Origin: Saprospiraceae bacterium
Lineage (GTDB): Bacteria > Bacteroidota > Bacteroidia > Chitinophagales > Saprospiraceae
Assembly: GCA_025056735.1 (NCBI GenBank)
Contig: JANWVR010000104.1
Span: 1-64,000 of the forward strand
Reading direction: 5' to 3'
DNA: 64,000 nt
Position 1 is the stretch's first letter, and every line of letters begins with the position of its first letter. The notes under the pieces are model-generated. The model was not told the DNA's origin, made no database searches, and saw only the letters and a program-made list of their open reading frames with translations. Both the position numbers and the translations under genes were made by a program. This document shows, one piece after another, positions 1 through 45,913 of this stretch.

Positions 1-1
1 C

Positions 2-634
2 CCGCGGCGGGCGTGGCTGTGCTATGTTGAAATGATGCAGCACATTGAGGTGGATGGCAAAGACCTGTGCCGCCTTTCGATGTGTCAGCGCCTTGCCGGC
101 GACGTGAAGGAAGCGAAAGCCACTGCGCGTCGGGCGCTCCAGCTCGACCCTTACCACGCTGAGGCCTGCTACCAGCTGGCGGCCGGCTTTGCCGAGGAGC
201 ATGATTACTGTCAGGCCTTGCGTTGGCTGCGACAGGCCGTACGCAACGACGAAAACCATGTCGCGGCCCACCAACTGCTCGCTGCCGTGTACAATCAGAC
301 CAATCAGCCATCGCTGGCCCACCGCCACGCCTGGCACGCCATTGAACAAGCCCCCGACTCCGCCGACGCCTGGACATGCCTGTTAGAAAGCCTGCTGCTG
401 CAGCAAAACTTCAAAGATGCCGCGCAAACCGCCCAGGTAGCCCTGCAACACGCGCACACCGCTGAACTCCTCTACTGCGCCGCCGCCTGCCACTTCTTAG
501 CCGAACAACGCGAGCAGGCCCTCGACCTGCTCCACCGCGCCTTCCAACACGCCCCCGAACACAGCGCCCTGCTCTTCCAATGGGCGCCTCACCTGCTTGA
601 CGACGAGGCCGTGCAAAAAGTCTTACAACTTTAA
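2..634 (+). CDS. TPR-repeat protein, 3' part (gene enters from the left edge)
   Basis: The reading frame is open from base 2 to the TAA at 632-634 with no stop before the first ATG at 32, so this is probably the end of a longer gene rather than a complete 200-residue protein. What is visible is a chain of helix pairs with the ~34-residue spacing and residue pattern of tetratricopeptide repeats, for example ALQLDPYHAEACYQLA and AFQHAPEHSALLFQWA. TPR arrays are protein-protein interaction scaffolds; the partner cannot be inferred here. No signal peptide can be judged because the N-terminus is missing. The gene ends just upstream of the rplU promoter, so it is probably a separate transcription unit. 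If the ATG at 32 were the true start, the protein would be a small six-repeat TPR protein. Confidence 0.8.
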   Translation, partial: PRRAWLCYVEMMQHIEVDGKDLCRLSMCQRLAGDVKEAKATARRALQLDPYHAEACYQLAAGFAEEHDYCQALRWLRQAVRNDENHVAAHQLLAAVYNQTNQPSLAHRHAWHAIEQAPDSADAWTCLLESLLLQQNFKDAAQTAQVALQHAHTAELLYCAAACHFLAEQREQALDLLHRAFQHAPEHSALLFQWAPHLLDDEAVQKVLQL

Positions 635-640
635 AAAAAC

Positions 641-673
641 TTTGCTCAACTAAATGCAACGTGCGTACCTTTG
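641..673 (+). promoter_or_regulatory. Bacteroidota-type promoter for rplU-rpmA
   Basis: TTTG at 641-644 and TACCTTTG at 666-673 are separated by 21 nt, matching the known Bacteroidota sigma consensus TTTG / TAnnTTTG. It lies 55 nt upstream of the rplU ATG. Transcription start not demonstrated. Confidence 0.65.
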
Positions 674-728
674 CCGGCCCTTTCGGGGGTAGTCACTCTT
701 TTTTGGCAATAAAACTGCATTTTCTCAC

Positions 729-1040
729 ATGTTCGCGATCGTTTCCATCGCCGGTCAACAGTTCAAAGTTGAGGAAGGTCAGAAGATCTTCGTCCACCGG
801 CTGGCAGCTCAGGAAGGAGATGCCGTCTCCTTCGACACCGTGCACCTTATTGACCGCGGCGCGGAGGTGTCCATCGGTACCCCGTACGTAACGGGCGCCC
901 AGGTAAAAGCCACCGTACTGGGGCATTTGAAGGGCGATAAGGTGATTGTCTTCCACAAAAAACGCCGCAAAGGCTATCGCAAGAAGAAGGGTCATCGTCA
1001 GTCTTTCACCCAATTACAAATCGAAGCCATCGCCGGCTAA
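729..1040 (+). CDS. rplU: 50S ribosomal protein L21
   Basis: A 103-residue protein that begins MFAIVSIAGQQFKVEEGQ and contains the basic segment FHKKRRKGYRKKKGHRQ, both characteristic of bacterial L21. L21 binds 23S rRNA domain I/II next to L20 in the large ribosomal subunit. It has the normal L21 length; some Bacteroidota L21 proteins, as I recall, carry a C-terminal helix-hairpin-helix extension, and here that extension is on the neighbouring L27 instead. The gene is followed after 39 nt by rpmA in the usual rplU-rpmA order, and a good promoter lies upstream. The ATG at 729 gives the canonical N-terminus, so the start is secure. Confidence 0.97.
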   Translation: MFAIVSIAGQQFKVEEGQKIFVHRLAAQEGDAVSFDTVHLIDRGAEVSIGTPYVTGAQVKATVLGHLKGDKVIVFHKKRRKGYRKKKGHRQSFTQLQIEAIAG

Positions 1041-1079
1041 CGGCCATCCATTCATCCACCTTTAAAAAGACTCCTCGTC

Positions 1080-1964
1080 ATGGCACATAAGAAAGGCGTA
1101 GGTTCTACCGATAACGGCCGCGACAGTAAAAGCAAACGCTTAGGCGTCAAGATCTTCGGCGGCCAGAAAGCCATCGCAGGCAACATCATCGTGCGCCAGC
1201 GCGGCACGAAGTTTCACCCCGGCAATAACGTGTACATGGGGCGCGATCACACTCTCCATGCAGCTGTGGACGGCATTGTAGCTTTTAAGCGCACTTACAA
1301 GGATCGCCGCATCGTCAGCGTCATTCCGTTCTCGGAGGTAGAAGTGTTGGAAGTCGCGGCTCCCGAAGCTGTTCTCCAAACCGCTCCCAGCTCGCGTAAA
1401 CCCGAAATTTCCGTTCCAGCGCCTGCAATAACAGAGGCGCCGTCCGTACAAGCGCAAGAGGAACTGCCCGCAGTAGAAGGGGCGCCTGCGGCCGTGGCCG
1501 AAGTACCTGCATCAGAGGCAGAAGCGCCTGCTTCGTCTATGGAATGGTCGGAAGCCGCGCTGGAACTGCCTGCAATAGAAGAGGCATCCGCAGCGGTGGC
1601 CGAAGCACCTGTGGCAAAGGCGGAAACGCCGGCAACCTCTGAGATACCCTCTGCCGAAGAAGCTGTTCAATCGGCTAAAAAGGCCAGTAAAAAAACGCCT
1701 AAGCTCAACGATCTCAAGATCATAGAAGGCATCGGCCCCAAAATCGAGCAGATACTGAAAGAGGCAGGTGTTGACACCTGGGAAGCGTTGGCCAATACTC
1801 CGGTAGAGCGCCTGCGCGAGATTCTGGATGCTGCAGGCCCACGCTATCAGGTACACGACCCGGCCACCTGGCCCGCTCAGGCGCGCTTTGCCGCTAACGG
1901 CGAGTGGGAAGAGCTGAAAGACTACCAGGACATGCTCATCGGCGGGCGCAAGCCTGAAGAATAA
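1080..1964 (+). CDS. rpmA: 50S ribosomal protein L27 with long C-terminal extension
   Basis: Residues 1-86 are a standard L27 ([20 protein letters not shown] at the start, then [22 protein letters not shown]), a protein near the peptidyl-transferase centre. Unlike the usual ~85-90 residues, this product has 294. Residues ~95-205 are an Ala/Pro/Glu-rich, probably disordered linker that contains two imperfect 26-residue repeats (128-153 [16 protein letters not shown]... and 162-187 [16 protein letters not shown]...). Residues ~207-294 form a compact domain with a helix-hairpin-helix core ([20 protein letters not shown]). Similar HhH tails occur on ribosomal proteins of Bacteroidota (family knowledge, from memory). 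The N-terminus has no cleavable prepeptide of the Firmicutes type. The fusion is a single uninterrupted frame ending at 1964, followed by a strong terminator. Confidence 0.95.
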
Positions 1965-2014
1965 GGCTGGCGGCGCGAGTCCAGTTACGAAATCCATCCT
2001 TTACCACAAAAAGC

Positions 2015-2055
2015 AAGAGCGGTGGGCGTTCGCTGAAGAACCCCACCGCTCTTTT
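2015..2055 (+). terminator. Rho-independent terminator after rpmA
   Basis: A perfect 12-bp stem AAGAGCGGTGGG (2015-2026) / CCCACCGCTCTT (2042-2053), loop of 15 nt, ending in TTTT. It closes the rplU-rpmA unit and stands 15 nt before the crcB start. Confidence 0.85.
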
Positions 2056-2069
2056 GTATCTTCTGACGC

Positions 2070-2435
2070 ATGCTCAAGCCTTTCGTTCTGGTTTTTTTCG
2101 GCGGCGGTTTAGGCAGCTTAGTTCGCTATGGGCTCTGGCTTTTGCTGCGCCCCTGGCAGGCCCACTTTCCTTGGGCGACGTTTGCTACTAACGCCATTGC
2201 CTGCTTCCTGTTTGGCCTGTTTCTGGCCTGGCAAGGGCACGGCTGGCTGTCGGACGACCGCCGCCTGCTGCTGATTACGGGCTTCTGCGGCGGATTCAGC
2301 ACCTACTCTACCTTTACCTCCGAGAGTTGGGGCCTGTGGCAAAGCGGCCACCACGGCGCATGGTTGGCCTACGTAGCGGGCCAGTTCTTGGTGTGCACCG
2401 CCTTTTTGCTGCTTGGGCTGCGTCTGGGCAGCTGA
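2070..2435 (+). CDS. crcB: Fluoride exporter CrcB/FluC
   Basis: A 121-residue membrane protein with four hydrophobic segments, the expected size for one subunit of the dual-topology FluC dimer that exports fluoride and protects enolase and pyrophosphatase. Family motifs are visible: GGGLGSLVRYG near the N-terminus, FATNAIACFLFG in helix 2, and GFCGGFSTYSTFTSE in helix 3 (the polar track and central Na+ region). The gene is monocistronic in appearance: a terminator precedes it and the next gene is convergent 17 nt away. No fluoride riboswitch was recognised in the 15 nt between the terminator and the ATG, so regulation is not evident. Confidence 0.93.
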   Translation: MLKPFVLVFFGGGLGSLVRYGLWLLLRPWQAHFPWATFATNAIACFLFGLFLAWQGHGWLSDDRRLLLITGFCGGFSTYSTFTSESWGLWQSGHHGAWLAYVAGQFLVCTAFLLLGLRLGS

Positions 2436-2452
2436 GCCTTCGCGCGTGTCCC

Positions 2453-3064
2453 TTACTTCGCGGAGGCGCGCCATTTAATGGTGCAGCCGATAGCCTTGGT
2501 TTCCGTGCGCGGTACTTCTTTGCCAGCCAGGAGCGCCTCGATGGCGTTTTCTAAATAGCGCTCTTTGACGGCATTCGGCTCCTCGTGGTTGTCGTCAATA
2601 GCGCCAATGTAGCGCACCCGGCGATTTTTGTCGAGCAGATAGACGTGCGGCGTGCGCGTGGCGCCATAAGCGCGCGCAATCTCCTGGGTTTCATCGTACA
2701 GATAGACGAACGGGAAGCCCTTCTCCTTGGCGCGCTTTTGCATGTTCTCGTAGCTGTCAGCAGGCTGGATGTCCTTGTCGTTGGGGTTGATGGCAATGAC
2801 CGGAAAGCCTTTTTTCGCGTACTTCTTGTGCAAAGCAATGATGCGGTCTTCGTACGCCACTGCAAAAGGGCAGTGGTTGCAGGTGAAGATGACGACGTAG
2901 CCTTTGGCCTTTTTCATCTTGCCCAGAGAGACCGTTTTGCCATCCACGTTTTTAAGATTGAAATCGCGTGCTTCATCGCCTACGCGATAGCCACCGCTTT
3001 GCGCCCAAAGCGAGACAGCCGAAAAAAGGAAAAACAGGAGCGACAGTTGGAGTGCTTGTTTCAT
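2453..3064 (-). CDS. Exported thioredoxin-fold (redoxin) protein, PRX-like
   Basis: A 203-residue protein with a signal peptide (MKQALQLSLLFFLFSAVSLWAQ) followed by an AhpC/TSA-Redoxin fold: VGDEARDFNLKNVDGKTVSL, then the redox site FTCNHCPFA (CxxC), PNDKD, and the cis-Pro loop GATRTPHVYLLD. The layout matches the PRX-like thioredoxin family in which an extracytoplasmic CxxCP motif replaces the classic WCxxC. It probably acts as a periplasmic thiol oxidoreductase or reductase; the substrate is unknown. It lies 37 nt downstream of a second thioredoxin-fold gene on the same strand, so the two are probably co-transcribed. The product has four cysteines in all: the pair in CNHC, one in the signal peptide region absent, and one near the C-terminus (AIGCTIKW), the last a possible structural or resolving residue. 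Confidence 0.88.
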   Translation of the reverse strand: MKQALQLSLLFFLFSAVSLWAQSGGYRVGDEARDFNLKNVDGKTVSLGKMKKAKGYVVIFTCNHCPFAVAYEDRIIALHKKYAKKGFPVIAINPNDKDIQPADSYENMQKRAKEKGFPFVYLYDETQEIARAYGATRTPHVYLLDKNRRVRYIGAIDDNHEEPNAVKERYLENAIEALLAGKEVPRTETKAIGCTIKWRASAK

Positions 3065-3101
3065 GTACTATAAAATGATTTGTTTGAATGATGAAATGCG
3101 T

Positions 3102-3593
3102 TTACTGGCCTAAGGCTTCCTGCACGGCCTTCTCGAGGTCTTCATAGTGAACCTGACGCTCAAAAAAGCGCTCAAATTTCTTCTTGGGTTGCACCACCAA
3201 TGTTGCCGGAATGGCGCCCGACCACTCGGTAGCCACAACGTCTATCCAGTCGTTGGGCGTTTTTTCGTCCAGAAAAACAACGTGACTTTTCAGGGCATGG
3301 CGCTCGACGAACGGCTTGAGCCGGCGGTCCACATCGCGTCGAAAATCGGTACTGACGAGCACCACGCGCACGGGCTTCTGGCTGTATTCCGCGTGAAGTT
3401 TCTCAAAGTGCGGCAGTTCGGCTACACATGGCGCGCACCACGTGGCCCAGAAATTAAGTACATAAACCGTGTCGGAGGCGCCCGAACGCCAGGCGCTTAG
3501 CTGCGCCGATTTGATAAATGGTATCGTGTCTTGTCCCTTCATCAGGGAAAAAGTAAAGGTCGTTACCAGCAAGAGCAATAGGGTTTTTCTCAT
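3102..3593 (-). CDS. TlpA-like exported thiol:disulfide oxidoreductase
   Basis: A 163-residue protein with an N-terminal signal peptide (MRKTLLLLLVTTFTFSLMKGQ) and a thioredoxin fold: VLNFWATWCAPCVAELPHFEKL carries the WCxxC redox site (Cys pair), followed by VVLVSTDFRRD and the cis-Pro loop AIPATLVV. TlpA/ResA-type proteins reduce disulfides in exported proteins such as cytochromes c. Spacing (37 nt) and orientation suggest an operon with the following redoxin gene, giving two exported thioredoxin-fold proteins in one unit. The ATG at 3593 gives the signal peptide directly. A promoter-like TATTTTTG element lies on the minus strand 38 nt upstream. Confidence 0.9.
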   Translation of the reverse strand: MRKTLLLLLVTTFTFSLMKGQDTIPFIKSAQLSAWRSGASDTVYVLNFWATWCAPCVAELPHFEKLHAEYSQKPVRVVLVSTDFRRDVDRRLKPFVERHALKSHVVFLDEKTPNDWIDVVATEWSGAIPATLVVQPKKKFERFFERQVHYEDLEKAVQEALGQ

Positions 3594-3630
3594 AGCGCAC
3601 CATTAACGCGCTAATTGCGCGGATTGTTGG

Positions 3631-3663
3631 CAAAAATAGATGGACGGGCGTGCTTCCGCGCAA
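3631..3663 (-). promoter_or_regulatory. Predicted promoter of the thioredoxin-fold pair
   Basis: On the minus strand TTG (3663-3661) and TATTTTTG (3638-3631) are 22 nt apart, close to the Bacteroidota consensus. The TlpA-like start codon is 38 nt further on. Confidence 0.5.
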
Positions 3664-3930
3664 CAGGTTTCAGAGCGCTCCCAATCTGCACAGGCTGCCG
3701 TCGGGTCTGGCATCGGTCGCGCGTTGTGCGCGACGCCGAACGGACAGACTCGTTTTTTACCAACGGCGAAACAAACATTTAATACAACTGCTGGCGCAAC
3801 AATCGGCACGCACGTGCACCTTTGGGAGTTTATTTCTGAAGACCGTGCCGAAGCTATTTTCCTCGCTTTTGCGGGCCTCCGGAGTTTCGTCAAGTCTGCC
3901 AGCCTTTTTTCATAGAAAAGCCTTTTGCCT
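3664..3930. other. Intergenic region between divergent genes
   Basis: No gene is supported here. Overlapping open frames exist on both strands but their translations are rich in Arg, Ser and Cys without any family pattern. It presumably holds the promoter of the large gene at 3931, but I see no clear TAnnTTTG element for it. Confidence 0.5.
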
Positions 3931-6900
3931 ATGCCACAAGTTATCCAGACTCCCAATGGCATTGAAGTGCCGTTAATCAAGCCGCGCAAGTTTCTGGGCG
4001 AGCGTTCGAGCGCATCGGTGCGCTACACGGTAAACAATGCGCCAGATGTGCTTTTTGCGCTGTTGCAAAACCAACCTTTCCCGCAGCGCGTCATTCGGCT
4101 GAGCGAGGTTTCCGCTCAGGCAGGCGCGGGTGGCGAGGGCATTCAATTCGCCAACGGCCAGGGGACGGTGAGTTTTCAGGCGCGCGGACGGGTGGCTTCG
4201 GGCATGGCAATTTATCCTGACCCGGCGCTGCTGCTGCGCGAGTTGGGGCTGGAGGACGACATCAGCCCTGGGCTGCCGCTGAAGGCCGACCCGGCGAGCA
4301 ACTATTTGCTGCTGCGCTGGGCATATGCGTTCGACGCGCGCGGCAAGGGCAACGCGCTCTTTGGCAGCGCGGCAGCAGCTTCGGCAAGCGCAGAGGGTCG
4401 TAGCGAAGGGCTATTTGCCATCGTGCGCCGCCTGCCCAAAGACATGGGCGCTGCCGAGGCCGTCTTCGAGGCCACGCAAAATTGGCTGCTGCCGGCGCAA
4501 ATCACGTCGGCAGACGACCTCGAGCCGGGCACGTGGCTCATCGCCGAGGTGGATAGCAGCATTGCCGCTGGGCTGCAGGCGCAGTACGGTTTTCTATACA
4601 GTTGGGTGCGCGAGACGCAGGCGCAAGGCCTTTCGGGCGACATAGGGCTACACCTTCAACTGGGCGCCACCGCAGGCGTAGGGTTTCAGGCGTCGGGCCG
4701 CTTTGCCGTTGTCGTCAGCCGCGAGGGCAACGATCCCAAAGACCGCCGACTGCGCATTCGGCTGTTCAAGCAGCGCCAGCGCGGATGGAGCGCCAGTGCC
4801 GACGTGCGCGCCGGCCTCCGGGCCGACCTGAGCCGCTTCCTGCCGCCCAACCTGACGGACTTCGTCCGCGCAGCGTTCGGCGCGCAAGGGCTGCAGGTGC
4901 TCAAAGACTTAGAAGACATAGAAGCCTGGACATCGCCCGACGCCGACCTGCCCGGCATGCTGGCTGGCCTGAGCAGCCGGTACTTCCAGAAATTCGTCAA
5001 AGACACTACCAAAATAGACCCAAAAACAGCATTCGACGAAGCCAAAAAGACGCTGCAAACCTGGCTCGACCGCTGGAACGAGCTCGACCACGAGGTCGCC
5101 AGCTTCCTGTGGAAACAGGCCGAAAAGAAGGTGAACCTGACCAAAATCCGCGCATTTAACGAGCAGTTGCGGCAGATGGATGCCGAGAAAGCGCAGGCCT
5201 TTTTGCGCCAGCAAATCGAGAAGGTGGACTTTTTCCAGACGCTGGGCGGTCAGTTTCTGCTGGCGCTGCTGCCTGAGGAGAACGTGCTGACGCTGCTGAG
5301 CGACCGAGGTGTCTTCCAGCAGGTGCGCGAGCGCGCCCAAAAGGCGGCAGCGATTCTCGACGGCAGCGCGTTCACCGACCTGCTGGTGCGCCTGCAAAAC
5401 CAGCTGAACAAGCGCCTGCGCGTCGAAGAGGCCGAAAAGTGGGCCGATGACTTAGAATTTGAACAGATAGACGAGTGGCTGCGCCTCAAAATGGCGCGCT
5501 TTTTAGATGAAAAAGCCTTTCAAAAACCGCACGTCCGGCAGGTGCGCGAGACGGTGCACCGCCTACTGGCGCAAAAAGAGGTTTTTTATGAAAAAGCCCT
5601 GCAAGCCCTTCAGCGCCACTACGGCTACGGCTTGAGCGCTGCCTTTCAAAAAAGCGCCAGCCATGCGGCGTTGGTGGACCTTACGGTGGACGGAGCAAAA
5701 GCCCGGACACTGCTTCGCCAGGCGCTGCTGGGCCGTTTCGATGCGATCCTCACCGCGCCGAAGGCCGGTGTTACGCTGCACGAAGGCACGCTCACGCACG
5801 GCATTCGCACGCAGAGCAGCATCGCGGTGCAGCTGCCGTTTGCGCAGGGAAGTGGCACTTTTTTGAACGAGAGCTTAGCCAAAGCCAGCGCCATTGACGA
5901 GGCCAATGGGCGCATTTTCGTCTATGACCTCAAGGCAACGGACACGGCCGTGAGCAACCGTACGCAGATGAGCGCGCTGACCATAGGCGCCCACGTCCGC
6001 ACCTCGGGCAATCGCGTGCGCGTGTACGACGAACGCTCGCTGACGTATGCGTATTCGTTCCAGCAACTCCGGCCGGCCATGCACGCCGCTGAATTGAAGT
6101 GCCAGGTAAAACCCTATGCCCAGCAGTATCTGAGCGAAGCCCTCGGCCAGGATGCCGACGCCGCTGTAGACGCCTGGGTAGAAGCCTTGGAACGCGACGC
6201 TGAACGCTTGCACCCCAATGGCGCCGGCCTGCTGGGCGATACCTTGCTGCGCTTAGACGTAACGCTGCCCGCCCAGGTCGCTTCTGCCTGGTTGCGCGCA
6301 CCCCTCAGCCCGCAAGCGCCGGAGTACACGCGCATGTCGCGCAACCTGCAACGCCGCATGCGCGAGCTGATACCGCTCTTTTACTTCCAGGACGCGCGCA
6401 AATACGGCGAAAAAGTCGCCCCGGCGTTGGTCGCCTACTCGGCCATGATACCCACGACGGGCTTCCGCCGGGAGGGCAACCGGTTGCTGCTGACCGACGA
6501 TGGCCTGTACTGGAACTGGCCCGACACCGACCAGCGCCGCGCCCTGTTGCTGCACCCCGGCACGCAGGGCCGCCTGAGAGCGCGCCTGCAGGAAATACAC
6601 GACCTAATCCAGCGCCTGCCCGGCCTACCGGCGACCCTGCGCAGAACGTACGACCCAGGGCGCATAGAAGCTTTCACGGACGACCTGCTCAACCTTCTCA
6701 AAGAAAAGCAAAGCGGGTTCGACAGCCTCTTCTTCACCGAGGCGACCATCATCGAGAAAGCCCGCGACGCCGGTGTGGCGCTGGCGCGCTTTCTGAAGGA
6801 AGCCAACAGCCAACCGGCGCGCGCAGTGCGCCATCTGGCGGAGTTTGGCGCGGCCATCACAGAGGCGTTCAATCAGCGGTTGGCGCCGGTCTATGGCGAT

Positions 6901-7104
6901 ACCGGCCTCCGGCCACTGGGTACAGCGCTGTTCGTAGAAGCCGCCCAGGCTTTCCTGCCCGCTGCTACACCTGTGCGGCCCCAGGCGCTCTTGCAAGCGG
7001 CCGTGCTCAAGCCCGATAGCGGCATTAAGCCCGACCCGCGTACGCCGCCTACCCAGGTAGCGCCAGAGGCCATACTCGTGTGCCGCCAGCTGAGCCAGCT
7101 GTGA
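3931..7104 (+). CDS. Unrecognised 1057-residue cytoplasmic protein
   Basis: I do not recognise this protein. The ATG at 3931 is preferred over an in-frame TTG at 3925. There is no signal peptide or obvious membrane helix. Residues ~1-310 are rich in beta-type alternation with Gly/Ala stretches (for example GLHLQLGATAGVGFQASGRF), residues ~310-560 look alpha-helical and charged with coiled-coil character (FLWKQAEKKVNLTKI, RLQNQLNKRLRVEEAEKW), residues ~600-720 return to beta-type sequence (SSIAVQLPFAQGSGTFLNES, RVRVYDERSLTYAYSFQQ), and the rest is mixed helical. It reads as one intact gene with base composition like its neighbours. It is flanked by a divergent gene pair and by a repeat-bearing intergenic region, so it appears monocistronic. 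Its function cannot be inferred from context. Confidence 0.85.
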   Translation: MPQVIQTPNGIEVPLIKPRKFLGERSSASVRYTVNNAPDVLFALLQNQPFPQRVIRLSEVSAQAGAGGEGIQFANGQGTVSFQARGRVASGMAIYPDPALLLRELGLEDDISPGLPLKADPASNYLLLRWAYAFDARGKGNALFGSAAAASASAEGRSEGLFAIVRRLPKDMGAAEAVFEATQNWLLPAQITSADDLEPGTWLIAEVDSSIAAGLQAQYGFLYSWVRETQAQGLSGDIGLHLQLGATAGVGFQASGRFAVVVSREGNDPKDRRLRIRLFKQRQRGWSASADVRAGLRADLSRFLPPNLTDFVRAAFGAQGLQVLKDLEDIEAWTSPDADLPGMLAGLSSRYFQKFVKDTTKIDPKTAFDEAKKTLQTWLDRWNELDHEVASFLWKQAEKKVNLTKIRAFNEQLRQMDAEKAQAFLRQQIEKVDFFQTLGGQFLLALLPEENVLTLLSDRGVFQQVRERAQKAAAILDGSAFTDLLVRLQNQLNKRLRVEEAEKWADDLEFEQIDEWLRLKMARFLDEKAFQKPHVRQVRETVHRLLAQKEVFYEKALQALQRHYGYGLSAAFQKSASHAALVDLTVDGAKARTLLRQALLGRFDAILTAPKAGVTLHEGTLTHGIRTQSSIAVQLPFAQGSGTFLNESLAKASAIDEANGRIFVYDLKATDTAVSNRTQMSALTIGAHVRTSGNRVRVYDERSLTYAYSFQQLRPAMHAAELKCQVKPYAQQYLSEALGQDADAAVDAWVEALERDAERLHPNGAGLLGDTLLRLDVTLPAQVASAWLRAPLSPQAPEYTRMSRNLQRRMRELIPLFYFQDARKYGEKVAPALVAYSAMIPTTGFRREGNRLLLTDDGLYWNWPDTDQRRALLLHPGTQGRLRARLQEIHDLIQRLPGLPATLRRTYDPGRIEAFTDDLLNLLKEKQSGFDSLFFTEATIIEKARDAGVALARFLKEANSQPARAVRHLAEFGAAITEAFNQRLAPVYGDTGLRPLGTALFVEAAQAFLPAATPVRPQALLQAAVLKPDSGIKPDPRTPPTQVAPEAILVCRQLSQL

Positions 7105-7228
7105 GGTTTAAAACCGCCGAGGAGGCAAATCGCTCCGCAAGCCTCGGCATCCGCGGCAGTTGCTGTTTTTATGCTCACTAACAGCCCGTAACTCGTTGAC
7201 TGGCATAATGTTAAAAGTGGGTCGTGTG

Positions 7229-7316
7229 CATCTGTCATCCCGTAACCCTCTGATATCCAAAGGGCTGCTGTGCCCTCTCGGGTTCTTTTATCCATCATGC
7301 TGACAGGCATCACATC
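7229..7316 (-). repeat. Dispersed ~86-nt palindromic repeat, copy A
   Basis: Read on the minus strand it starts GTGATGCCTGTCAG and ends TTACGGGATGACAGATG. It contains the CCCTTTGG...AGAGGG stem variant. It forms an inverted pair with copy B, 24 nt away, in the 607-nt gap between 7104 and 7712. The rest of that gap shows no supported gene. Confidence 0.75.
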
Positions 7317-7340
7317 CGGCTGCTGGCAAGAGGTGTGAAT

Positions 7341-7426
7341 GTGATGTTTATCGGGATGTTTGATGCAGGAGGGAGGTATCTGCGTCTATCCACCCGATGA
7401 ATTGGACGGTTACAGGATGATAGATG
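7341..7426 (+). repeat. Dispersed ~86-nt palindromic repeat, copy B
   Basis: Starts GTGATGTTTATCGGGATG, has the CACCCGATGAATTGGACGG core and ends TTACAGGATGATAGATG. It aligns without gaps to copy C (26091-26176). It stands 286 nt upstream of the CapA-like gene. Confidence 0.8.
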
Positions 7427-7711
7427 CGGTGTTACGCCCAAATTTCGGCTAACGGCTTTTAACCGATGGAATTGCAATCTATTGAAAACTGGATTTTTGA
7501 GTGTGCGCTTCTGTTAGCCCAGGTTTTCTATACGGACTCACTGTGTCCCAATTGCACAGAACAGCATTGCGGCCAGCTGGCGCAGGTTAGATGAGGAAGC
7601 GAGGATACAAGCATTTAGCGACCTTTGCCATTGCTTTTAATCGGGCCGCCTTAGGATATTTTTTAGATAAAAAAAAACCGGACTGGCCGGTGACAGAGAA
7701 GACACGACGCT

Positions 7712-8857
7712 ATGCCAACGCTTTTCATTCGATTGGGCTTGATTTTGCTCGCTGCTGCTTCATTGTGGTGGGGCGCTGAAGCCAATGGATGGTTTCGCCT
7801 TTCCTCTAACGATGATGCGCACGGGCAGCTCGATACGCTCACTTTGCCACCGGCGGATACGCTGCTGCAGCCGCGCACGTATCGGGTCATTGGCGTGGGC
7901 GACATCATGCTGGGCACGAACTACCCTTCGCCGTCGTACCTGCCGCCGGAAGACGGCGCCACGCTGCTGGCTGAGGTGCGCGATACCTTGCGCCAGGCCG
8001 ACGTTACGTTTGGCAACCTGGAGGGTACCATGTTTGACCACGGCGGCTCGCCCAAGCGGTGCCAGAACCCTTCGGTGTGCTACGTGTTCCGCACGCCCTC
8101 GCGTTATGTGCGGCACTTGGTGGATGCGGGCTTCGACCTGCTGAGTCTGGCCAATAACCATTCGGGCGATTTTGGCCCCGAGGGCCGCCGCCAGACGATG
8201 GAGACGCTGCGCCAGGCCGAGATTGCCTTTGCGGGATTAGAGGGCGTATGCGACACGGTGATCATCGAGCGCGCCGGTAAGCGCTGGGGCATGTGCGCCT
8301 TTGCGCCCAACACCGGCACGTGCGACCTGCGCAACATCGCCCGCGCTCAGACATTGGTGCGCCAGCTGAAGGAACAGGCCGATTTTGTCATTGTCTCCTT
8401 CCACGGAGGCGCCGAGGGCGCCCCCCACCAGCATGTGCCCAAACGCATCGAGTATTTCCACGGCGAAAACCGCGGCGACGTGCACGCTTTCGCCCATGCC
8501 GTCGTGGACGCCGGGGCCGATATTGTCTTCGGGCATGGCCCGCACGTTACGCGCGCCCTCGAGCTGTACAACGACCGGCTCATTGCCTACAGCTTAGGTA
8601 ACTTCTGCACTTACGGACGCTTCAGCTTAGCTGGCCCGGCGGGCATTGCGCCTATCCTGCAAGTGGACATTGACGAGCAGGGCCGTTTCGTGGCCGGGCA
8701 AATTATGCCCACCTATCAGCAAAAACACCACGGGCCAAAGTTCGACCCACAGGGGCGAGTCATTCAGGCCCTCATTGAACTGACGCGGGCGGATTTTCCC
8801 GATACGCCGTTAGACCTTTCGCCCAACGGGCAAATTACCCGTCGCCCGGCAGAGTGA
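7712..8857 (+). CDS. CapA-family protein (PGA_cap metallophosphatase fold)
   Basis: A 381-residue protein with an N-terminal hydrophobic segment (LFIRLGLILLAAASLWW), probably a membrane anchor or signal, followed by a CapA/PgsA calcineurin-like domain. Family motifs in order: GVGDIMLGTN (~residue 66), GNLEGTM, SLANNHSGDFG, VSFHGGAE, and GHGPHVTRALELY. CapA proteins are associated with poly-gamma-glutamate or other envelope polymers, but homologues occur in many bacteria without PGA synthesis; capB/capC genes are absent here, so a role in PGA production is not supported. The active site faces the periplasm if the anchor is real. It stands alone, preceded by the copy A/B repeat region and followed by fbp in the same direction after 119 nt. 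Confidence 0.9.
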   Translation: MPTLFIRLGLILLAAASLWWGAEANGWFRLSSNDDAHGQLDTLTLPPADTLLQPRTYRVIGVGDIMLGTNYPSPSYLPPEDGATLLAEVRDTLRQADVTFGNLEGTMFDHGGSPKRCQNPSVCYVFRTPSRYVRHLVDAGFDLLSLANNHSGDFGPEGRRQTMETLRQAEIAFAGLEGVCDTVIIERAGKRWGMCAFAPNTGTCDLRNIARAQTLVRQLKEQADFVIVSFHGGAEGAPHQHVPKRIEYFHGENRGDVHAFAHAVVDAGADIVFGHGPHVTRALELYNDRLIAYSLGNFCTYGRFSLAGPAGIAPILQVDIDEQGRFVAGQIMPTYQQKHHGPKFDPQGRVIQALIELTRADFPDTPLDLSPNGQITRRPAE

Positions 8858-8915
8858 TGACCCGGTACATGCCAACGAGAGCAAAAACGACCGCTGTTCT
8901 GGCTGAGAACTTTGC

Positions 8916-8923
8916 TACTTTTG
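8916..8923 (+). promoter_or_regulatory. Possible -7 element for fbp
   Basis: TACTTTTG, matching TAnnTTTG, 53 nt before the fbp ATG. The upstream TTTG partner is poor (CTGTTC at 8895-8900), so this is only suggestive. Confidence 0.35.
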
Positions 8924-8976
8924 CTTCGTCATTCTAACCATTAGCGCCACACCTTAACCACGTTATCCAGATTATT

Positions 8977-10041
8977 ATGGCTACCGGAAGAAACGGCAAA
9001 CCGGCCGAAACCTCCAGCAAACTCTATCAGCCGAGCAACCGCATCGTTACGCTCGATGAATTCATCATCCGCTCAGAGAAGGACTTTGAATTTGCCACAG
9101 GCGAGCTCACCGGCTTGCTGCGCGACATCGGCGTGGCGGCTAAGATCATCAACCGCGAAGTGAACAAGGCGGGCTTAGTCAACATCCTCGGCGTAGCCGA
9201 CGGCAGCGACAACGCCTCTGGCGACATCCAGCAGAAACTCGACATTTACGCAAACGAGAAGCTTATTGAGTGCCTCAAAAACAGCGGAGAATGCTGCGCC
9301 ATCGCCTCCGAGGAATGCGAGGATATCATCCAGGTAGAACCGGTGCATTCCAAAAAGAGCAACTATGTGGTGTTGTTTGACCCCTTAGATGGCTCCTCCA
9401 ACATTGACGTAAATGTGTCGGTGGGCACCATTTTCGCCATTTATCGGCGCAAGAGCGACAACTCAGGGCCAGCCACCCACGAAGATTTCCTCCAGCCCGG
9501 CACCAAACAGGTGGCTGCCGGCTACGTGCTCTATGGCACCTCTACTATATTGGTCTACACGACCGGAAATGGCGTCAACGGCTTCACGCTTGACCCCAGC
9601 ATCGGCGAGTTTTGCCTGAGCCACCGCAACATGCGCATACCGGAGAACGGCCAGTTCTATTCGGTCAACCAGGGCTACTATTCCAAGTTTGATTTGGAGC
9701 TGCGCCGCTACATTGACCACTGCAGCGACCAGAACTACGGCCTGCGCTACATCGGCTCCATGGTCAGCGATATCCATCGCATTCTCATCCAGGGCGGTAT
9801 TTTCCTGTACCCCAGCACGCGCAAATACCCGAAAGGCAAGTTGCGTTTGCTCTACGAATGCAACCCACTCGCCATGATCGTAGAGCAGGCTGGCGGAAAG
9901 GCTATTAGCACTCAGCTGAAGCGCATCTTAGAAATAGAACCCAAAGAATTGCATCAGCGCTCTACCATAGCTATCGGCTCTCCCGTCATGGTGGACGAAC
10001 TTAAAGGCTTTATCGAGCGCTATGCCGCCTTGCCGCTGTAA
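8977..10041 (+). CDS. fbp: Class I fructose-1,6-bisphosphatase
   Basis: A 354-residue protein that hydrolyses fructose 1,6-bisphosphate to fructose 6-phosphate in gluconeogenesis. Class I motifs are intact: EECEDI (metal-binding acidic residues), LFDPLDGSSNIDVNVSVGT (metal and substrate loop), YIGSMVSDIHRIL and GKLRLLYECNPLAMIVEQAGG near the C-terminus. The length fits the class I family. The next gene, an ABC ATPase, starts 11 nt after the stop and may be co-transcribed; no functional link between them is apparent. A TACTTTTG element lies upstream. Confidence 0.97.
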   Translation: MATGRNGKPAETSSKLYQPSNRIVTLDEFIIRSEKDFEFATGELTGLLRDIGVAAKIINREVNKAGLVNILGVADGSDNASGDIQQKLDIYANEKLIECLKNSGECCAIASEECEDIIQVEPVHSKKSNYVVLFDPLDGSSNIDVNVSVGTIFAIYRRKSDNSGPATHEDFLQPGTKQVAAGYVLYGTSTILVYTTGNGVNGFTLDPSIGEFCLSHRNMRIPENGQFYSVNQGYYSKFDLELRRYIDHCSDQNYGLRYIGSMVSDIHRILIQGGIFLYPSTRKYPKGKLRLLYECNPLAMIVEQAGGKAISTQLKRILEIEPKELHQRSTIAIGSPVMVDELKGFIERYAALPL

Positions 10042-10052
10042 CTGGACAACAC

Positions 10053-10820
10053 ATGATCCGAGCAGAAAACATCCACAAATCGTTTGGGCAGCAAGAGGTG
10101 CTCAAAGGCATCACCTTTACCTTTGAGACCGGCAAATGCAACCTCATCATTGGCCGCTCTGGCTCGGGCAAGACCGTGCTGGTTAAAATTCTGGTGGGGC
10201 TGCTGAAACCCACGAGTGGGCAGGTGTGGTACGACGACGTCGAGTTCACCCGGCTGAATGCTGAGCAAATGCGGGAAATCCGCATGCAAATGGGCATGCT
10301 GTTTCAAGGCTCAGCGCTCTTCGACTCGCTAACGGTGGAGGAAAACGTCCGATTTCCATTGGATATGTTTACTCGCATGACTGCCAAAGAAAAAGCCGAC
10401 CGCGTCAACTATTGCTTGGAGCGCGTCAACTTAGCGGGCAGCAACAAAAAATACCCCTCGGAACTTTCGGGCGGCATGCAAAAGCGCGTAGGCATCGCGC
10501 GTGCTATTGTCCTAAACCCGAAATACCTATTTTGCGACGAACCCAACTCTGGCCTCGATCCTAAGACGGCCATTGTCATTGATGAGTTGATCCGAAGCAT
10601 CACTCAGGAAAATAATATCACCACCATCATCAATACCCACGACATGAACTCGGTGATGGAAAATGGCGATAATATTTGCTTTCTCTTTGAGGGCCGCGTC
10701 GAATGGAGCGGCAATCGGCACGAGGTGCTGGGTAGCAATAACCAAAACTTGCAGTCCTTTATCTTTGCTTCTCCCTTCTTACAGCGTCTTCGGCAGGCCG
10801 CTCTGCGCCCTCCAGCTTAG
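10053..10820 (+). CDS. MlaF-like ABC transporter ATP-binding protein
   Basis: A 255-residue ABC ATPase. Walker A is GRSGSGKTVL, the Q-loop lies in MGMLFQGSALFDSLTVEENV, the signature is LSGGMQKRVGIARAI, Walker B is YLFCDEPNSGLDP and the H-loop is NTHDMNSV. GMLFQGSALFDSLTVEENV and the signature with MQKR are typical of the MlaF/Ttg2A subgroup, which powers lipid transport between the membranes together with MlaE and an MCE protein. Here the MlaE-like permease lies immediately downstream but on the opposite strand, and the two genes overlap by four bases at their stop codons (TTAG). No MCE substrate-binding gene is present in the window. Confidence 0.92.
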   Translation: MIRAENIHKSFGQQEVLKGITFTFETGKCNLIIGRSGSGKTVLVKILVGLLKPTSGQVWYDDVEFTRLNAEQMREIRMQMGMLFQGSALFDSLTVEENVRFPLDMFTRMTAKEKADRVNYCLERVNLAGSNKKYPSELSGGMQKRVGIARAIVLNPKYLFCDEPNSGLDPKTAIVIDELIRSITQENNITTIINTHDMNSVMENGDNICFLFEGRVEWSGNRHEVLGSNNQNLQSFIFASPFLQRLRQAALRPPA

Positions 10821-11578
10821 CGCATAAGAATGAGGGCCACTAAGTAGTCGGCCAGCAGGATAAGGATATCGCTGTACACCACAGCGCGTGTGCTGGCTTG
10901 GCCCAGCTCGATACTACCGCCTTGTACGTAGTAGCCCTGATAGCAAGAGACGGTGGTCAGTATAAATGCAAAGACCACCGACTTGACGTACATCATAAAC
11001 ACATTGTACGGCTCGAAGAAAGAGCGCAACCCTTGGTTGTATTCGTCGTCGGTCAGCCAGCCCGTGGGTACGCTAGCCACATAGCCGCCGATGATGGCCA
11101 CAAAGGCCGAAAACGTAACTAAAAGCGGAATAGCGACCAAAGCGCCCACGATTTTAGGTCGGATCAGGTAGGCCGCCGAATTGACTCCCATGACTTCCAT
11201 GGCGTCAATATGTTCCTTTTGGCGCATGCCGCCGATTTCGGCCGTCATGTTGGAGCCCACTTTGCCGGCCAGCACTAAGCAGGTGATGGTGGGCGAAAGC
11301 TCAATAATGGCTAAGTCGCGCACAATATAGCCAATGTAATAGCGAGGGATAAGCTGCCCATCGAGCTGATAGGCAAACTGTATTGCCGCCACCGCTCCGA
11401 TAAAAATGGAAATCAGGCAAACAATGATGAGGGAGCCGATCCCAATGTGGTTCATCTGGCGCATGGTTTCTTTCCAGTACATGGAGAAGTTCTCCGTGCG
11501 CCCGAAGGTCTGCTTCATCAGCAGCAGGTAACGGCCGAAGTGGTAAATAAAGTTAAAACGCTTATCTATGACGAGCAT
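10817..11578 (-). CDS. MlaE-family ABC transporter permease
   Basis: A 253-residue integral membrane protein with five to six hydrophobic segments and the diagnostic MlaE loop IELSPTITCLVLAGKVGSNM followed by TAEIGGMRQKEHIDAMEVMG and RPKIVGALVAIPLL. MlaE dimers form the inner-membrane channel for phospholipid traffic that maintains outer-membrane asymmetry. The ATPase partner is almost certainly the neighbouring convergent gene, although permease and ATPase genes of this family are normally co-directional. No promoter of the TAnnTTTG type was recognised in front of the start. The MCE component must be encoded elsewhere. Confidence 0.93.
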   Translation of the reverse strand: MLVIDKRFNFIYHFGRYLLLMKQTFGRTENFSMYWKETMRQMNHIGIGSLIIVCLISIFIGAVAAIQFAYQLDGQLIPRYYIGYIVRDLAIIELSPTITCLVLAGKVGSNMTAEIGGMRQKEHIDAMEVMGVNSAAYLIRPKIVGALVAIPLLVTFSAFVAIIGGYVASVPTGWLTDDEYNQGLRSFFEPYNVFMMYVKSVVFAFILTTVSCYQGYYVQGGSIELGQASTRAVVYSDILILLADYLVALILMR

Positions 11579-11758
11579 GGCAACGCGCGTGGATGACGTT
11601 ACAAAGGTAGAAAACTGATAGCATTAGCAAAGATTGCGCCCTTAGGCAAACTTTAAGGCCATAGGATGGTTTGGCAGGCTGGCCGCACTCTTGCGATTGC
11701 TGAAACGCGAAGAAGAATTCTATTCAGAAGGCACAAAGAAGCATAAGAAGGGTTTTTT

Positions 11759-12490
11759 ATGCCACAACATAATTCTACAACACACCCGCCCGTAGCCGTG
11801 ATTAGCGGAGCCACCAAAGGGCTGGGCCGCGCCATTGCCGAGCGTTTTGCTCAAAACGGCTTTGACCTGGCCGTCTGTGCGCGGACGGCTGCTGATTTAG
11901 TGGACATGCAACAGCACTGGGCAGAGCGCTATCCCAGTCGGACACTCTTGGCCGTACCTGCCGATTTGGCCCAGCGCGCGGATGTGGAACGCTTCGCGGA
12001 GGCGGTGCGCAGTCGCTGGTCGCGCATAGATGTGCTGGTCAACAACGCCGGCATTTTCCGCCCTGGGCGCGTGTGCGACGAGGCGGAGGGCACGCTGGAA
12101 TTCCTCATCGAGGTCAACCTGTACAGCGCATACTATCTGACGCGCGCCCTGTTGCCGTTGATGCGGCCGCATCAAAGCGGCCATATTTTTAATATGTGCA
12201 GCATCGCCAGCCTGAATGCTTACCCGAATGGCGGCTCTTACAGCATTTCCAAGTTTGCGCTGTTGGGCTTTTCTAAGGCGCTGCGCGAAGAGCTGAAGAC
12301 CGAAGGTATCCGCGTAACGGCACTGCTGCCCGGCGCCACCTGGTCCGACTCCTGGCGTGGCGTCGAGTTGCCCGCGGAGCGGCTCATGCAGGCCGACGAT
12401 ATCGCGCAGCTGGTATGGGCAGCCTATCACTTATCGCCCTCGGCGGTGGTCGAAGAGCTGGTGGTGCGCCCTCAGTTGGGTGACCTGTGA
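11759..12490 (+). CDS. Short-chain dehydrogenase/reductase
   Basis: A 243-residue classical SDR. The NAD(P)-binding glycine motif is SGATKGLGRAIAERFA, the adenine-ring motif is PADLAQRADV, NNAG is in DVLVNNAGIFRPG, and the catalytic Ser-Tyr-Lys are in MCSIASLNAYPNGGSYSISK (S, YxxxK with Y of SYSISK). The C-terminal segment SAVVEELVVRPQLGDL resembles SDRs annotated as 3-oxoacyl-ACP reductase-like or sepiapterin reductase-like, but substrate cannot be assigned. The gene appears monocistronic; rsgA is convergent 12 nt downstream with no terminator visible between them. Confidence 0.92.
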   Translation: MPQHNSTTHPPVAVISGATKGLGRAIAERFAQNGFDLAVCARTAADLVDMQQHWAERYPSRTLLAVPADLAQRADVERFAEAVRSRWSRIDVLVNNAGIFRPGRVCDEAEGTLEFLIEVNLYSAYYLTRALLPLMRPHQSGHIFNMCSIASLNAYPNGGSYSISKFALLGFSKALREELKTEGIRVTALLPGATWSDSWRGVELPAERLMQADDIAQLVWAAYHLSPSAVVEELVVRPQLGDL

Positions 12491-12502
12491 GGCTGTTTAC
12501 GG

Positions 12503-13456
12503 CTACTTAACGGCCTTGTTGCGTTCCCAATAATTGATTTGCTCTACCTCGTCGAGGATGGCTAAGTAGTTGAAATAGCGCAATTCGCTCACCTCGCCGC
12601 GCTCCAAGGCCGCACGTACGGCGCAGCCCGGTTCGTTGCGGTGCAGACAGGCGGCGCCAAAACGGCATTGCGCCGACAGGCGGAAAAATTCGCGAAACGA
12701 ATGCGCCACGTTTTGTGGGTCTTTGTTGTTGAACGACAGCGTCTTGATACCCGGCGTGTCAATGATATATCCCCCAAAGTCCAATGCGAACATTTCGGCG
12801 AACGTGGTCGTATGTTTGCCTTTGCCTGAGTAATCGCTCAGGTCGCCTGTGCGCAGGTTTAGGTGTGGCTGTATGGCGTTTATCAGGCTGCTTTTGCCCA
12901 CCCCTGACTGGCCGGAGAGCAGCGTCGTCTTGTCCTTTAATGCCTCCTTGACAGCCTCTAAGCCCTTGCGCTCGACGACCGAAGTAGCCAGCACAGTATA
13001 TCCAATACCTTCGTAGAGGGCTTTCATTTCAAAAAACACATCCACAGCGCGCTCGTCGTAAAGGTCGCCTTTATTGAACACGATGACCACCGGGATCTCG
13101 TGCGGTTCTGTCATCAGCAAAAAGCGGTCAATAAAACCCGGCTTCAGATCGGGCTGCACCACGGTGGTGATGAGCATGGCCTGGTCAATGTTGGCCGCCA
13201 GCAAGTGTAGGTCGTGCTTGCGCCGCGGCGACTGGCGCACCACGTAGTTGCGGCGCGGCAAAATCTGGACGATGACCCCCTGACCTACCTGTTCGGGCTT
13301 TACCTCTACACGATCGCCCACAGCCACCGGATTGGTCAAAGGCATGTCCTCTAATCGAAATTTGCCGACAATCCGGCATTCCCACACCGCACCGTTGGCG
13401 TCGAGCCTGACCTGATACCAACTCCCCGTTGATTTGACAACCGTTCCCGTTTGCAT
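12503..13456 (-). CDS. rsgA: Ribosome small-subunit-dependent GTPase RsgA (YjeQ)
   Basis: A 317-residue GTPase that helps late maturation of the 30S subunit. It shows the circularly permuted order of the family: OB-fold N-terminus (GTVVKSTGSWYQVRLDANG), then G4 FNKGD, G1 LSGQSGVGKSSLINA, G3 DTPGIKTL, and a C-terminal zinc-binding region with CRFGAACLHRNEPGCAV. I chose the ATG at 13456 because the family N-terminus begins there; an upstream in-frame ATG at 13525 would add 23 hydrophobic residues without homology. It is convergent with the SDR gene and divergent from the M23 peptidase gene. Confidence 0.95.
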   Translation of the reverse strand: MQTGTVVKSTGSWYQVRLDANGAVWECRIVGKFRLEDMPLTNPVAVGDRVEVKPEQVGQGVIVQILPRRNYVVRQSPRRKHDLHLLAANIDQAMLITTVVQPDLKPGFIDRFLLMTEPHEIPVVIVFNKGDLYDERAVDVFFEMKALYEGIGYTVLATSVVERKGLEAVKEALKDKTTLLSGQSGVGKSSLINAIQPHLNLRTGDLSDYSGKGKHTTTFAEMFALDFGGYIIDTPGIKTLSFNNKDPQNVAHSFREFFRLSAQCRFGAACLHRNEPGCAVRAALERGEVSELRYFNYLAILDEVEQINYWERNKAVK

Positions 13457-13763
13457 AGTAGCTGGCAAAGGTGCAGAAAAAACCTGTGGAAAAATAATTG
13501 AAGTAAGCAGATGAGCGAGAGACATGGATTTAAATCTTTAAAAATCAATGTTTTAAGACCGCTTCGCCAAGCGGCATCTCCGTCCTGCAAGTGTTAAAAT
13601 TTTACGCTGTTGTTTAACAAATATTTCAGAAAGTACTTTCTTCGCCCTTGCAAAAAGCGATGCTGGATGGGCAACATCAGCGCCAAAAAGAGGCGGATGC
13701 GAGGACCCTTGAAGGCGAATTTGCTGCGCAGCAGACCTTTTTGTTTTATTTTTTGTAAAAATG
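13457..13763. other. AT-rich intergenic region upstream of rsgA
   Basis: This part of the gap between the divergent rsgA and M23 genes is AT-rich at 13500-13650. It probably contains the rsgA promoter on the minus strand, which I could not pin down. No gene is supported. Confidence 0.4.
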
Positions 13764-13795
13764 TTTGGTTACTATCGCACGTCTAAATACTTTTG
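13764..13795 (+). promoter_or_regulatory. Bacteroidota-type promoter upstream of the M23 gene
   Basis: TTTG at 13764-13767 and TACTTTTG at 13788-13795 with a 20-nt spacer match the consensus well. The start codon is ~178 nt downstream, so a long leader (13796-13972) is implied. I see no riboswitch-like structure in it. Confidence 0.6.
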
Positions 13796-13972
13796 TGCGC
13801 CGGTTGGCGAAAGAGCCGAACGACAGAACCAACCTGAGTCATCCATTGTGGGCATCTGCCCCCAGGATTTGAGCAAATGCAAACGAATGCATTTTAATCC
13901 GCAGCCGTCCACGCCAGGGCATGTTTTCAAACAGCAGCCATGTGAACGATGGCTTGGGTAAAAACCGACCAT

Positions 13973-14956
13973 ATGGGCAGGAAAGAAAAGTTTGTTTACA
14001 ACACACAAACCCTTAGCTACGAACGTGTAGTTGTCCCCCTTCGAACAAGAATTCTACAGGCCTTTGGTTTCTTCTCGGCCGTTTTGGTAGCGGCTATCGG
14101 CCTGCTCGCCTTACTGTACCATTACTTCCCTTCCCCGCGCGAAAAGGAGTTGCTACAGGAGATTGCACAAATGGAGCGCAAATTTGCCCAGCTCAACGAA
14201 GAGATGGACAACATGTCTAAGACGCTCCGACACATTCAGGAGCGCGACGCTTATGTGCATCGCGCGGTGTTTGGTATGGATCCGATTGACCCCGACGTCT
14301 GGCAAGCGGGTACGGGCGGTCACGAATCGCACCCGGAAGTGAAAGCCTTCAAATACGGAGGCGAGACCATCCGACAAACGCTCATCCGCATGGACGTACT
14401 CCAGCAGCAGATGGCTATTCAGGCGCGCTCGTTGGACACCATCATGGCCTTAGCCAAAGACCAGGAAAAGATGCTGGCGAGTATTCCCAGTATCAAGCCC
14501 GTGCGTGAAGATAAGCTGCAGAAGAGCATGAACGTGCTATCGGGCTTCGGATACCGCATCCACCCGGTATATAAGATTCGGAAGTTTCATCAGGGCGTTG
14601 ACTTCCCCGCGCGCATTGGTACGCCCATTCAAGCCACTGGAGACGGCGTAATAATAGAGGCTGGTTGGCACCAGGGCTATGGCAATTGCGTGCGCATCAA
14701 CCACGGCTACGGCTATGAAACCTGGTACGCCCACATGCACAAAATGTCTGTTCGCGTTGGCGAGCGCGTCAAAAAAGGCCAGAAAATTGGCGAAGTGGGC
14801 GATACAGGCCTGTCTACAGCGCCGCATTTGCACTACGAAGTGCACTACAAAGGCAAACCGATCAATCCGATCCACTTCTGCATGGACAATCTGACGCCGT
14901 TAGAATATCAGGAATTGGTCAACAGCGCCAGTGCAGCTAATCAGTCGCTGGACTAA
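13973..14956 (+). CDS. M23-family (LytM-type) metallopeptidase, membrane anchored
   Basis: A 327-residue protein from the ATG at 13973; an alternative ATG at 13949 would add eight residues. It has a short cytoplasmic N-terminus (MGRKEKFVYNTQTLSYERV), one transmembrane segment (~residues 25-48), a coiled-coil region (KELLQEIAQMERKFAQLNEE) and a C-terminal peptidase M23 domain. Zinc ligands are visible: HQGVDFPA (His and Asp) and HLHYEVHYKG (HxH). The family cleaves peptidoglycan cross-bridges or stem peptides, or activates other amidases when catalytically inactive; here all ligands are present. This N-terminal layout is common in Bacteroidota M23 proteins that act in cell division or envelope remodelling (family knowledge). 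Confidence 0.93.
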   Translation: MGRKEKFVYNTQTLSYERVVVPLRTRILQAFGFFSAVLVAAIGLLALLYHYFPSPREKELLQEIAQMERKFAQLNEEMDNMSKTLRHIQERDAYVHRAVFGMDPIDPDVWQAGTGGHESHPEVKAFKYGGETIRQTLIRMDVLQQQMAIQARSLDTIMALAKDQEKMLASIPSIKPVREDKLQKSMNVLSGFGYRIHPVYKIRKFHQGVDFPARIGTPIQATGDGVIIEAGWHQGYGNCVRINHGYGYETWYAHMHKMSVRVGERVKKGQKIGEVGDTGLSTAPHLHYEVHYKGKPINPIHFCMDNLTPLEYQELVNSASAANQSLD

Positions 14957-14974
14957 GCGGGCACGGGTAAAATG

Positions 14975-15011
14975 AAGCGGCCCTCGCGTCACCGAGATGC
15001 GAGGGCCGCTT
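14975..15011. terminator. Bidirectional terminator between convergent M23 and peroxiredoxin genes
   Basis: Perfect 13-bp stem AAGCGGCCCTCGC (14975-14987) / GCGAGGGCCGCTT (14999-15011), loop 11 nt. The minus-strand side is followed by CATTTTACC. It serves genes ending at 14956 (+) and 15017 (-). Confidence 0.8.
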
Positions 15012-15016
15012 GCGTT

Positions 15017-15472
15017 TCAGGCCTCCAGCAACTGAGCAGCGTGGTTTTCCGTATCCACCTTTGTGATGATGCGCTCGATACGCCCGTTTTCATCAATGAC
15101 AAACGTAGTGCGGTGGATGCCGTCAAAAGTCCGGCCCATAAACTTTTTGGGCCCCCATACGCCGTAGGCTTCGGCTACCGCGTGGTCTTCGTCGGCCAGC
15201 AGGCTGAAAGGCAGGTTGTACTTTTCGATGAACTTTACGTGTTTTTTTACCGGGTCGGGGCTTACGCCCAAAATGGCGTACCCTTTGCCCACGAACTGGC
15301 TGTAACCATCGCGCAGGCTACAGGCCTCGGCCGTGCAGCCCGGCGTGTCATCTTTAGGGTAGAAGTAAAGCACCAATTTTTTACCCTTAAAATCGGACAG
15401 GCGAACAATTTCGCCCTTCTCGTTGGGGGCCGCAAACTCGGGAGCAGCATCCCCTTCTTTTAAATGAAACAT
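15017..15472 (-). CDS. bcp: Thioredoxin-dependent peroxiredoxin (BCP/PrxQ type)
   Basis: A 151-residue atypical 2-Cys peroxiredoxin that reduces hydroperoxides. It begins MFHLKEGDAAPEFAAPNEKG and has FYPKDDTPGCTAEACSLRD, which holds the peroxidatic Cys (TPGCT) and, five residues on, the resolving Cys of the PrxQ subgroup (EACS). The downstream GVWGPKKFMGRTFDGIHRTT is also typical. I set the start at the ATG at 15472; a much longer open frame continues upstream but overlaps the flippase gene out of frame and shows no homology. It is 32 nt downstream of the flippase gene on the same strand. Confidence 0.95.
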   Translation of the reverse strand: MFHLKEGDAAPEFAAPNEKGEIVRLSDFKGKKLVLYFYPKDDTPGCTAEACSLRDGYSQFVGKGYAILGVSPDPVKKHVKFIEKYNLPFSLLADEDHAVAEAYGVWGPKKFMGRTFDGIHRTTFVIDENGRIERIITKVDTENHAAQLLEA

Positions 15473-15504
15473 AGCGGTGTAAGTGTTTTTGGCGGCAGTA
15501 ACAA

Positions 15505-45889: not shown

Positions 45890-45913
45890 CACACAGAAAA
45901 AATCACGATCGCC

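Follow-up and report, generated by a model that had tools for sequence, protein, structure and literature searches.

What does the long reading frame at 3931..7104 (+) encode, and does it belong to any known protein family? It lies in the window, a 64,000-nucleotide stretch of Saprospiraceae DNA, in a source genome of 3.7 Mb assembled in 152 contigs. The frame, called the orphan gene below, runs from an ATG start to a TGA stop with zero internal stops, and its 1057-residue product has a mass of ca. 117 kDa. A first-pass annotation made from the letters had described it as a long intact gene of unrecognised family.

A single gene under purifying selection

An in-frame TTG is also present two codons upstream of the ATG at 3931; in three homologues (L005, L006 and L007), the earliest start codon that the open frame offers is an ATG at the corresponding position. 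Base composition (GC 0.628, GC3 0.756) is comparable to that of the downstream PGA_cap gene (0.619, 0.743). Between 3550 and 7720, there were 0 promoter-like sites (1.0 in shuffles) and six terminator-like sites (5.8 in shuffles). No tandem repeats were found in positions 1-16000, and the 64-kb window contained no Rfam match and no tRNA.

The copies in the window, G035 and G002, which represent the three nearest species, comprise 1057 codons each and align free of gaps. Their dN/dS is 0.086, 0.078, and 0.064 in the three possible pairs, values that are rough because dS among these species is 0.84-1.48; dN per 100-codon window varies from 0.04 to 0.14. Among the neighbours, PGA_cap has dN/dS of 0.081 and 0.065 and a gene presumably encoding an SDR protein 0.078, and the genes presumably encoding Fbp and an ABC ATPase are under stronger constraint (0.009-0.021). 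Purifying selection maintains the orphan gene. Ratios of 0.064-0.086 exclude both a chance frame and a fusion of pseudogenes, and 3931..7104 is a single, real, and intact gene. The absence of internal stops, the full-length homologues and the selection thus bear out the initial description, and the composite of two pseudogenes that it had named as a counter-reading is excluded, seven homologues aligning end to end under purifying selection.

Distribution and descent

Homologues were sought in a collection holding one genome per species, in draws that overlap, count the own genome, and rely on a first-pass search that may miss remote relatives. Counting the own genome, seven of 42 in the genus have the gene at full length, and the other six carriers encode proteins with 87, 83, 53, 48, 47, and 46% identity to that of the window. 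Among 100 genomes of relatives, the own counted, seven have the gene. The family draw (318 genomes) and the order draw (366) each returned two, the own and G002, and the class draw returned the own only (1/395); outside the genus, these three draws gave no homologue. Some non-carriers are 76-90% complete, so that a few absences may be gaps. A single-sequence search of genome contigs found two loci, those of G035 and G002. In the phylum draw two of 395 genomes have the gene, the own and G209. The latter belongs to another class of the same phylum, and its homologue is 31% identical and aligned nearly end to end. Within its own family and class, G209 is the only carrier found (1/11 and 1/244 genomes, respectively).

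Descent was followed on a tree of Fbp, built from the best-scoring loci of 30 genomes out of the 41 in which Fbp had a match; the carrier G040, in which it had none, and 11 non-carriers whose matches were weaker were left out. Only eight of the 27 inner branches have good support. The six placeable carriers fall in a single, weakly supported branch with eight members (82/85, drawn open), in which the only non-carriers are G011 and G039. Two changes suffice to explain the gene on this tree. None of 1000 label shuffles reached two; they required three (5 times), four (56), five (247), or six changes (692). The tree of the orphan gene itself, with midpoint root, joins G019 to the three nearest species (83/86) and unites G022, G040, and G029 (96/98), and is compatible with the Fbp tree. 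Since the placeable carriers share one Fbp branch and two changes stand against three to six in the shuffles, the data are compatible with, and point to, gain of the gene before the carrier branch, followed by descent with loss within the genus.

The homologue of G209 needs either ancient transfer or widespread loss, as none was found elsewhere in its class or outside the genus in the draws made. Because this homologue stands outside descent in the genus and because the place of the gene is unconserved among distant carriers, transfer or many losses of the gene have occurred. At E 0.01, no relative of the window protein was found among 50,697 phage records or 72,556 plasmid records, the L017 and L006 proteins had no plasmid match at E 1, and three scans of viral contigs gave no relative. 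Two places in Rhodococcus plasmids (E 2 and 3 in a search to E 10) were dismissed as chance, being antisense to a gene that we take to be monooxygenase-like.

Genomic neighbourhood

The orphan gene is flanked upstream by a divergent gene at 3102..3593 (-), whose product we assume from its WCAPC motif to be thioredoxin-like, and downstream by PGA_cap (PF09587, a family match) at 7712..8857 (+). The order is the same in G035, where the orphan gene also stands between the thioredoxin-like gene and PGA_cap. It is adjoined by PGA_cap in G002 as well, where the contig ends ca. 450 bases beyond the other side.

When 14 window genes were sought around the five more distant homologues (G019, G040, G022, G029, and G209), the loci shared only the orphan gene itself, the sole exception being a 33% identical ABC-ATPase paralogue in G022. 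Their own neighbours, read by eye from lists of open reading frames, also differ from one another. A DUF2490 gene follows the orphan gene by 23 bases in G022 and was seen beside none of the other homologues; in G029, a divergent gene on one side and a convergent one on the other leave the orphan gene solitary. A conserved partner gene, sought around the homologues, was thus found nowhere beyond the three nearest species, in agreement with the earlier statement that functional neighbours are lacking, and for this reason the protein probably works by itself or with partners encoded elsewhere.

PGA_cap is present also in the non-carrier G011, together with Fbp and the two genes that come next in the window. 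A clean empty site was considered there and rejected. None of the six upstream window genes has a match in the 11 kb upstream (L054, 1-11280), so the junction is a rearranged one, and the region upstream of PGA_cap in G011 has been rearranged at some point.

Several other genes of the window were noted alongside. At 1080-1964 (+), ribosomal protein L27 (PF01016) is followed by an Ala/Glu/Pro-rich linker and then a helix-hairpin-helix domain (HHH_5, 27 bits, cut-off 27); the same layout was seen by eye in G035 (L010, 6499-7317). At 10053-11578, two genes, presumably for an ABC ATPase (+) and an apparent MlaE-type permease (-), lie tail to tail with a 4-base overlap and form no operon, and their convergent order is found also in G035, G002, and G011. 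The 2321-residue product of the gene at 18996-25961 (+) has six matches to SprB repeats (PF13573), and its match to the CHU_C type IX secretion signal stays below cut-off. A glucosamine-6-phosphate isomerase domain is fused to a PIG-L deacetylase domain at 45887-47863 (+), and the only match of a 449-residue protein at 28379-29728 (-) is vanadium chloroperoxidase, sub-threshold at E 0.074.

Protein architecture

Secondary structure was called from propensities and hydrophobic moments averaged over an eight-row alignment, a crude home-made method by which residues ca. 1-300 and 560-725 are predicted to be beta-rich and residues 300-560 and 730-1000 helical. Four parts may accordingly be delimited, the first boundary being approximate: a beta-rich N-terminal part (residues 1-302; 3931..4836, +), a helical part (residues 303-560; 4837..5610, +), a second beta-rich part (residues 561-725; 5611..6105, +), and a mostly helical C-terminal part (residues 726-1057; 6106..7101, +). 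The alternation of beta-rich and coiled-coil-like segments proposed at first is in this way supported as one of beta-rich and helical stretches, by propensities and moments only. The companion suggestion, of a kinship between the two Gly/Ala-rich beta regions, found no support: HHalign comparison of slices of the eight-row profile gave at most 2.5% probability, the best pair being residues 190-300 and 556-740 over 11 columns.

The protein has two Cys and a pI of 9.0. Its highest 19-residue Kyte-Doolittle mean is 1.17, which makes a transmembrane helix unlikely. No signal peptide was evident by eye, as had been stated before, and with no likely transmembrane helix the protein is presumably soluble and cytoplasmic.

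In all eight sequences, 147 columns are invariant, 99 of them L, G, A, W, F, or P. They include eight Asp, four Glu, a single His (H623, in the second beta-rich part), and no Ser or Cys. The densest block is formed by the 88 residues 199-286 (4525..4788, +), a candidate ligand-binding module with 29 of the 147 invariant columns, or 0.32 per residue vs. 0.07-0.16 in other parts. Invariant here are PGTW (199-202), G236, D237, G239, L240, R264, R275, R277, K280, R282, and W286, with five Arg/Lys between 264 and 282.

Searches for known families and folds

No match above curated cut-off was obtained in Pfam or NCBIfam with any of the eight sequences, nor in Pfam with their consensus. Sequences of the PDB gave nothing below E 0.05 with single sequences, seven- and eight-row profiles, four part profiles, or the consensus. 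PHROGs and PADLOC have no curated cut-off; their best matches reached E 0.037 (PHROGs, seven members, the G209 homologue left out) and E 0.0038 (PADLOC, PDC-S06, in the homologue L004 over 153 residues). In PADLOC, none of the eight sequences matched at E 0.001 and seven had no match up to E 1. With the homologue of G209, scans of Pfam, NCBIfam, and PADLOC gave no match up to E 1.

The sub-threshold matches were examined and set aside. The window protein gave EST1 (E 0.035) and NblA (E 0.057) in Pfam, both below cut-off, and the Pfam scans of seven and eight members gave GASH (0.0012), MINDY (0.086), NCTSP (0.094), and DO-GTPase2 (0.16). NCBIfam gave NF002424 (8.6e-05) and TIGR01766 (0.041), again below cut-off, and the only Pfam match of the weighted consensus was IZUMO (E 0.92). 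GASH, NF002424, PDC-S06, EST1, NblA, TIGR01766, and DO-GTPase2 all match between residues 338 and 572, inside the helical middle or at its margin, and NCTSP at residues 658-751. The GTPase-associated system helical domain (GASH, PF19994) resembles residues 338-416 of one of the eight sequences (L005), but with 18.6 bits at a cut-off of 27, and the other seven sequences do not match it. V-type ATP synthase subunit E (NF002424) resembles three homologues at ca. 464-551 (E 8.6e-05, 0.00018, and 0.065), but the best match has 22.2 bits at a cut-off of 241 and covers the helical region only. As the GASH, subunit E, and PDC-S06 matches lie in the helical middle, occur in one, three, and one homologues, respectively, and stay below such cut-offs as exist, they are taken for helical composition.

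Against PDB sequences, the best E of the four part profiles were 0.1 (choloylglycine hydrolase), 0.056 (DnaJ C2), 0.24 (LM2363), and 0.28 (transcriptional regulator), and those of the whole profiles 0.23 and 0.24. AlphaFold2 with a three-row alignment gave pLDDT 34 and pTM 0.22 for the whole protein and pLDDT 45 and pTM 0.44 for residues 120-302. With the latter model, the best Foldseek E was 1.8 and the best VIA-align Z 5.2; models of pLDDT 34 and 45 make the fold comparison uninformative, and the top VIA-align matches (actin-capping protein, then phage coat proteins, pneumolysin, and others) are read as meaningless.

The library and PDB-sequence searches agree with the first-pass annotation that the protein has no recognisable family and that a new one is possible, and the confident match to a characterised family that would speak for the contrary did not appear in them. 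The orphan gene very probably represents a real family without recognised relatives. "New" would here mean new by sequence, and a known fold is quite possible.

Possible functions

The most plausible alternative, to which we give somewhat less than an even chance, is that the protein belongs to a known domain family from which it has diverged strongly, a kinship that only a good structure would reveal, and is possibly an enzyme. The eight-row alignment is shallow, which limits profile sensitivity, and the sub-threshold match of residues 176-222 to choloylglycine hydrolase points the same way, but it spans only 47 residues, and no library match exceeded its cut-off and no PDB-sequence match fell under E 0.05. 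The invariant eight Asp, four Glu, and His623 would allow an enzyme; against this, no classical catalytic motif was seen by eye.

This alternative overlaps in part with the role proposed here, which is put forward tentatively and as rather unlikely to be right in full: a soluble cytoplasmic protein that would bind an anionic partner through the module of residues 199-286. It would act by binding or as a scaffold, not as a classical enzyme, either by itself or as a homo-oligomer, and with no conserved partner gene. The strongest clue is the conserved, basic module predicted to be beta (PGTW, GDxGL, R264, RxRLFKxR, and W286), which may hold the anionic partner, for which nucleic acid, a phospholipid surface, and polyphosphate are candidates, and the helical parts may arrange or oligomerise the protein. 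The evidence for anion binding is the set of conserved basic residues in eight sequences, and nothing else.

A single-gene anti-phage defence system is considerably less probable. It would suit a solitary gene present in only seven of the 42 genomes of the genus, and the weak PDC-S06 match of L004, but seven of the eight sequences lack any PADLOC match up to E 1, the carriers cluster on the Fbp tree, the place of the gene is conserved in the nearest species, and neither phages, plasmids, nor viral contigs hold a relative at the limits used.

Least probable of all is delivery by a contractile injection system, as a large effector or cargo, or secretion as a toxin, as might be imagined for a large multidomain protein with no evident signal peptide and no partner, but no secretion gene was seen beside the orphan gene, and evolution is even in its nearest copies, dN/dS staying below 0.09. 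The phage-sheath family PF04984, the one sheath family used as a test, exceeds its cut-off in three of seven carriers (G029, G022, and G040) vs. six of 35 non-carriers, a difference that, if anything, speaks for this reading. At E 0.001, it occurs in 27 of the 42 genomes, 24 of the 35 non-carriers among them, but is absent from the carriers G000, G035, G002, and G019 (96-100% complete). As carriers of the own branch lack it while three of seven carriers exceed the cut-off, the effector reading is weakened for the branch of the window, not for the whole family.

Comparison with catalogued novel families

A survey of uncultivated taxa lists 404,085 novel gene families (FESNov-type; PMC10849945). 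The orphan family resembles them in having no known domain over Pfam or NCBIfam cut-offs, in occurring in several species (seven of 42 genomes, and G209) with enrichment in a clade, and in strong purifying selection (dN/dS 0.064-0.086 in three of three pairs), and differs in having a homologue in another class. Two of the carriers are uncultured Saprospiraceae MAGs, and G209, a single-contig genome, may be an isolate.

Saprospiraceae abound in wastewater plants and are still poorly understood (PMC9304909). The orphan family is one more uncharacterised, well-conserved, and clade-specific family. More speculatively, and improbably on present evidence, the protein may form a self-sufficient cytoplasmic assembly or scaffold of new fold, specific to one Saprospiraceae branch and shared with a second class in the phylum through an ancient transfer. 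If true, such a new assembly would mean one more fold and a clade-specific trait for the Saprospiraceae.
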